42,446 bases of DNA from Microcaldota archaeon (lineage in GTDB: Archaea > Micrarchaeota > Micrarchaeia > Micrarchaeales > CABMGC01). Shown piece after piece: positions 1 to 773 of this stretch. The translations under genes were made by a program, and so were the position numbers. Within the stretch, counting starts at the first letter, position 1. Each line of letters starts with the position of its first letter. A model generated the notes under the pieces. That model made no database searches and was not told the origin of the DNA. It was given only the letters and a program-made list of their open reading frames with translations. Location: the NCBI GenBank assembly GCA_021801225.1, contig JAJYYF010000014.1:1-42446 (forward strand), written 5' to 3'.

Positions 1-586
1 GATGCTACGGTTTAATTGAATTCAACGTCGGAAATATCACCTGGAGAGACGGCAGGATGAAGGTCAGACTAAAGATCTTGCCTAACAAGCCGAGAGGTGT
101 TGCATGGCGATCGTCAGTTCGTGGTGTGAACTATCCGGTTAAGTCCGGTAACGAACGAGATCCTCACTTACAGTTGCTACCAATACAGAGATGTATTGGG
201 CACTCTGTCGGGACCGCCTGCGTTTAAGCAGGAGGAAGGAGAGGGCCACGGTACGTCAGTATAGCCCGAACCTCCAGGGCTACACGCGGCATACAAAGGT
301 TGGCACAGTGGGCTGCCACTCAGAAATGAGGAGCCAATCCCAAAAACCAATCTAAGTTCGGATTGAGGGTTGAAACTCACCCTCATGAAGTTGGAATCCC
401 TAGTAATCGCTTGTCACTATCGAGCGGTGAATATGTCCCCGCTCCTTGCACACACCGCCTACCAAGTCATCCAAGTGGGGCCATAGTGAGGCAGTATCCT
501 AATAGACACTGTCGAACTAAGGTCTCGTGAGGGGGGCTAAGGTATAACAAGGTATCCGTAGGGGAACCTGCGGATAGATCACCTCG
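1..586 (+). rRNA. 16S rRNA, 3' portion (5' end outside window)
   Basis: Conserved 16S segments: TTTAATTGAATTCAACG, CGTCAGTTCGTG, GGAATCCCTAGTAATCGC, GCACACACCGCC, AACAAGGTATCCGTAGGGGAACCTGCGGATAGATCACCTC. 3' end placed at the ATCACCTC tail; exact terminus uncertain. Confidence 0.97.
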
Positions 587-773
587 AAACATTTTTTAAA
601 AATTGTTTCCCTAAACTTATTAAGTGTGCGTTTAAAACTAGTTGCGGCCTCGCACTATTTCTCAAGACTACAATCCATTCTATTTTTATCTACTTTATTT
701 TAATTAAAAAATAAATTATTTACAAAAGAAAAGTAACACATTCATCTAAATATCTGTATTTTAATATACTACT

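Follow-up and report, generated by a model that had tools for sequence, protein, structure and literature searches.

The U1406·U1495 mismatch in helix 44 (h44) of 16S rRNA, together with its neighbours, is counted among the near-invariant elements of the decoding site. The window, by which we mean the whole analysed stretch of 42,446 bases, shares with the canonical archaeal h44 (Rfam family RF01959) the helix itself, the decoding adenines, and the positions of the pairs, but three pairs in the neck of the helix are replaced, with a Watson-Crick pair standing where the U1406·U1495 mismatch would be.

The closest engineered counterpart is the U1406C/U1495G double mutant of Hobbie et al., which, as described in PMC3140962, carries the same C1406-G1495 pair as the window in a bacterial laboratory strain, without the changes at 1404-1497 and 1405-1496. 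Since this double mutant was examined experimentally (PMC3140962), the C1406-G1495 pair is tolerated. Among natural sequences, the archaea G312, G314, G319, G340, G360, and G374 (CAT/TTG or TAT/TTA, states being written here as the bases at 1404-1406/1495-1497) have a compensated 1405-1496 pair, joined in G314 by a compensated 1404-1497 pair, but unlike the window they keep the U1406·U1495 mismatch. The six-base state of Ca. Micrarchaeum sp. A_DKE (NZ_CP060530, genome G156) is identical to that of the window. This archaeon belongs to the same order, has a CCUCA tail, and carries the order's flip of the 18-917 pair, a position beyond the 16S fragment of the window, but it differs from the window genome in family and genus. 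We found no description of an h44 change in Micrarchaeota in the literature searched on the decoding site or helix 44.

A rewritten helix 44 neck in a 16S rRNA fragment

The window is the entire contig C9 of a 965-kb genome (G000) that is 91% complete. It starts with the 3' part of an archaeal 16S rRNA gene (positions 1 to 585, plus strand), whose 5' part is missing at the contig start and which terminates in GATCACCTC at positions 577 to 585. Rfam matches positions 1 to 587 to RF01959 with 538.6 bits, compared with a gathering score of 50, covering model positions 891 to 1478 and cut only at the contig start. When G000 itself was searched with RF01959, nothing matched, apparently owing to the truncation of the gene at the contig start. 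No 23S rRNA follows the 16S rRNA in the window (positions 586 to 42446), whereas the two genes are linked in the canonical relatives L267, L268, and L270.

The 5' strand of the rewritten neck, U1404 A1405 C1406 in place of the canonical C G U, is found at positions 460 to 462 of the plus strand, and pairs with G1495 U1496 A1497, in place of U C G, at positions 542 to 544 of the same strand. U1404-A1497, A1405-U1496, and C1406-G1495 thus replace C-G, G-C, and U·U. The sequence, the Rfam alignment, and a direct check all give this registration, confirming the E. coli numbering used in the initial annotation. C1407 and A1408 (positions 463 and 464, plus strand) are retained, as are G1494 and the decoding monitors A1492 and A1493 (positions 539 to 541, plus strand; sequence and direct check), so that the C1407-G1494 pair and the three adenines are kept in the window sequence, as had been claimed.

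Distribution of h44 states

A search of about 85,000 species genomes with CACCGCCTACCA plus AAGGTATAACA, spaced as in h44, located the exact window state in 16 contigs, one of which is the complete chromosome of A_DKE. Twelve of them are titled Micrarchaeota or Micrarchaeum and four "Marsarchaeota", and all 16 belong to the group of the window. The four records titled Ca. Marsarchaeota (L032, L040, L042, and L045) match the order members G004, G151, G155, and G160, and their titles look wrong.

A second survey covered all states: the order, the phylum, and about 94 further archaea were searched with patterns that leave the six bases free, and the bases were then read from the matching sequences. 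The order, which contains Ca. Micrarchaeum, shows six states among 113 genomes: TGC/GCA (59), TAC/GTA (21), CGC/GCG (17), TGT/TCA (14), CGT/TCG (1), and CGG/CCG (1). Among 46 other Micrarchaeota, 45 are CGT/TCG and one is TGT/TCA, and the other archaea comprise 22 CGT/TCG, five CAT/TTG, one TAT/TTA, and one TGT/TCA (a match in G351, which is not 16S, was excluded). The 1406-1495 pair is something other than U·U in 98 of the 113 order genomes (97 C-G and one G-C), compared with none of 74 others (46 Micrarchaeota and 28 archaea; this comparison omits G326, itself also U·U). A strict need of A1405 for C1406 is ruled out, as A1405-U1496 coexists with U·U in other archaea.

Every combination in the tabulated genomes of the order, the other Micrarchaeota, and the other archaea is compensated. 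The initial annotation had described all three pairs of the window as compensated and had proposed tabulating these positions across relatives. The same six bases recur in the 16 contigs, and the opposite strand carries the matching change in 113 of the 113 order genomes, which places the feature well outside chance or error. Three near-universal pairs beside the decoding site have been replaced repeatedly, on both strands at once, and the rewrite of h44 is a trait of the whole order with several intermediate states rather than a one-off. In five order genomes (L164 to L168, from G020, G042, G048, G037, and G046), C1400, which stacks on the P-site anticodon, is a U.

Number of changes in the 16S tree

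A maximum-likelihood 16S tree was built without the six bases from 137 rows and 1,475 columns, using a quick search. The order forms a single clade (100), in which G000 groups with G002 and G001. The tree requires at least 21 state changes, with 13 at 1404-1497, seven at 1405-1496, and five at 1406-1495, these counts being guides and not exact values because 41 forks are weakly supported. Even when only strongly supported branches are counted, TAC/GTA needs at least three changes, and for this reason A_DKE and the window lineage have probably reached this state separately. The h44 neck shows what is expected of pair-conserving rRNA covariation: both strands changed, pairing kept in 113 of 113 genomes, six states, and several independent events.

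Changes in the rest of the 16S core

The h44 rewrite is one part of a broader rewrite of the 16S core in the order. We screened for columns with a conservation of 93% or more outside the order that are changed within it; the numbers 14, 18, 527, and 917 used below were assigned by sequence context and read from relatives such as L157, as they lie outside the window fragment. In the central pseudoknot, G18-C917 replaces C18-G917 in 63 of 63 order genomes and also in two of 23 other Micrarchaeota. Further pair flips are found at 354/361, 126/239, 940/949, and 1030/1177 (G306 positions). This breadth is the main reason to prefer recurrent compensation over an adaptation specific to decoding. Two further changes, G527A in the 530 loop (77 of 77, with C522 kept) and U14C, are of the unpaired type and not pair flips, indicating that simple compensation does not cover everything. 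Many order members additionally have 16S insertions (introns) near G306 positions 1072, 1340, 885, or 766, for example, L157, L146, L149, and L023.

Proposed recurrent pair-preserving compensation

We propose, with a probability of roughly 0.7, that the six bases of the window represent the most derived form of a rewrite of the h44 neck that preserves pairing and has recurred in one Micrarchaeota order, arising by near-neutral compensation in a relaxed 16S core. Near-universal sequence identity is lost while pairing persists without exception, and a Watson-Crick pair takes the place of the U1406·U1495 mismatch. Selection would act on the geometry and stability of the helix and not on base identity, and in these mostly symbiotic cells with reduced genomes compensated double changes may be about neutral, becoming fixed repeatedly. 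Codon monitoring by A1408, A1492, and A1493 would stay normal.

The register-shifted "excited" conformation of the A-site was described to contain the pairs G1494-U1406, A1493-C1407, and A1492-A1408 (PMC12314911). The additional C-G pair may stiffen the neck and suppress this conformation. In a nearest-neighbour calculation for the A-site hairpin, the gap between ground and excited state rises from 1.5 kcal/mol for CGT to 5.9 kcal/mol for CGC, TGC, and TAC, and the stability goes from -11.1 (CGT) to -17.2 (CGC), -15.7 (TGC), and -13.7 (TAC). The subsequent C1404U and G1405A changes would return part of the added stability. A more rigid A-site neck is thus predicted by simple energy rules, and an altered local A-site geometry is plausible. 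That C1406-G1495 has persisted in 97 genomes could reflect adaptation instead of neutrality.

Possible translation retuning and the anti-Shine-Dalgarno tail

A functional retuning, in which the h44 changes adapt the A/P-site neck to the loss of the anti-Shine-Dalgarno sequence, to the loss of a modified C1404, or to altered initiation, is a tentative and rather unlikely alternative. The 16S 3' tail of the window (positions 577 to 590, plus strand) reads GATCACCTC followed by GAAAC and is missing the CCUCC anti-Shine-Dalgarno core, as are the tails of 113 of 113 order genomes. These tails all consist of GATCACCT, then C, A, or T, and then a base other than C. Nearly all other Micrarchaeota have CACCTCC (the exception being G236), and other archaea have mostly CACCTCCT.

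Start-site motifs in A_DKE are in line with such a retuning: the Shine-Dalgarno-like motif GAGG precedes 4.6% of the first ATGs, close to background (internal control, 3.9%), compared with 23% (control, 8.2%) in the canonical relative G253, whose tail is CCTCCT; these counts, from 400 kb of A_DKE with simple start calling, are indicative only. GGTG is enriched before starts in both genomes. C1404 was tentatively described as hm5C in Pyrococcus abyssi, where it contacts the N-terminus of eL41 (PMC7005279), and the U1404 found in 94 of the 113 order genomes removes this target. However, U-A at 1404-1497 and A-U at 1405-1496 are also found in archaea whose tails are normal, and the order member G021 combines a canonical h44 with a tail lacking CCUCC, showing that the two changes are separable and ruling out the h44 change and the anti-Shine-Dalgarno loss as a single event.

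Introns and homing endonucleases

A second alternative is escape from introns or homing endonucleases, with the change at 1495-1497 destroying an insertion target or exon pairing and the change at 1404-1406 then restoring the helix. Mobile elements do target this region in close relatives. Two SSU/1498 group I introns have been described in Micrarchaeota, and LAGLIDADG genes are found in many archaeal group I introns (PMC6125680). In our data, six Micrarchaeota from outside the order (L268 to L273) have an intron following position 1498, and Rfam RF00028 confirms the group I identity of both that were checked (L268 and L270). In four further genomes outside the order, about 43 extra bases separate G1494 from U1495. 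All of these genomes have the canonical six bases. The 1494/1495 inserts (L260 to L263, from G219, G180, G226, and G176) interrupt the decoding site at its centre and are probably small introns. The 3' exons are interrupted there in none of 119 cases in the order and in about 11 of 98 outside it (Fisher p about 1e-4, phylogeny ignored).

This difference may have the reverse causal direction, an intron being unable to enter a site that had already changed. The h44 state also kept changing many times after any escape, the rewrite reaches elements such as 18-917 that have no demonstrated intron pressure, and order members with canonical or TGT/TCA states are likewise free of these introns. We therefore regard escape from insertion as a genuine alternative of minor weight, and quite unlikely as the explanation of the six bases. 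It is equally doubtful that the 16S core was recoded pair by pair at least partly as a guard against invasion by introns or homing endonucleases, for example at 1494 or 1498, with a Watson-Crick-locked neck that would rarely enter the excited state.

A degenerate LAGLIDADG-like protein of 161 amino acids is encoded at positions 783 to 1268 of the plus strand, 197 bases downstream of the 16S rRNA, as a neighbour and not a part of h44. The catalytic acidic residue is missing from both of its motifs. The family is found in 210 of 301 Micrarchaeota, almost always as a single copy, and many copies in the order lie just downstream of the 16S rRNA or within a 16S intron.

Aminoglycosides and artefacts

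The initial annotation had regarded aminoglycoside resistance as probable, and selection by drug-producing neighbours might be imagined as its cause. The rewritten positions lie within the drug-binding pocket, and ArmA-type resistance enzymes methylate G1405; G1405A could be relevant to gentamicin-type drugs. G1491U is a strong determinant of aminoglycoside resistance in bacteria. Position 1491 is, however, already U in 46 of 46 tabulated phylum members outside the order, leaving little to gain, and the A1409-U1491 pair, being common to all 46, is not part of the h44 change. A1408 is unchanged, and no replacement of this drug-contact adenine (A1408G or similar) is found. According to PMC3140962, the U1406C/U1495G mutant of Hobbie et al. 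had almost no effect on the MIC. The claim of resistance is left unsupported by the kept A1408 and this nearly unchanged MIC, and we consider it very improbable.

A sequencing, assembly, or alignment artefact or a pseudogene, as might be suspected in a metagenome-type contig beginning within the 16S gene, has a negligible probability and is ruled out by the recurrence of the six-base state in 16 contigs (one a complete chromosome), the perfect compensation across 113 genomes, and the fit of the remaining fragment to the family model over its full length, so that the covariation invoked in the initial annotation against sequencing error holds.

Implications for the order

The rewritten h44 neck has a practical consequence for surveys of these archaea. 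As had been predicted for common 16S reverse primers, the window has three mismatches to the 1392-1406 target and four to the 1492R target, and three of the latter four are in the bases adjoining the primer 3' end. Primer mismatches have been described in DPANN archaea generally (PMC8407392), and the rewrite explains why standard 1492R primers should miss this Micrarchaeota order.

The order shows that a part of the ribosome thought to be almost unchangeable can be rewritten, provided that pairing is kept. As a natural lineage with a fixed C-G pair (once G-C) at 1406-1495, many intermediates, and a co-cultured member, it offers a ready-made test of the role of the U1406·U1495 mismatch and the excited state in decoding fidelity.
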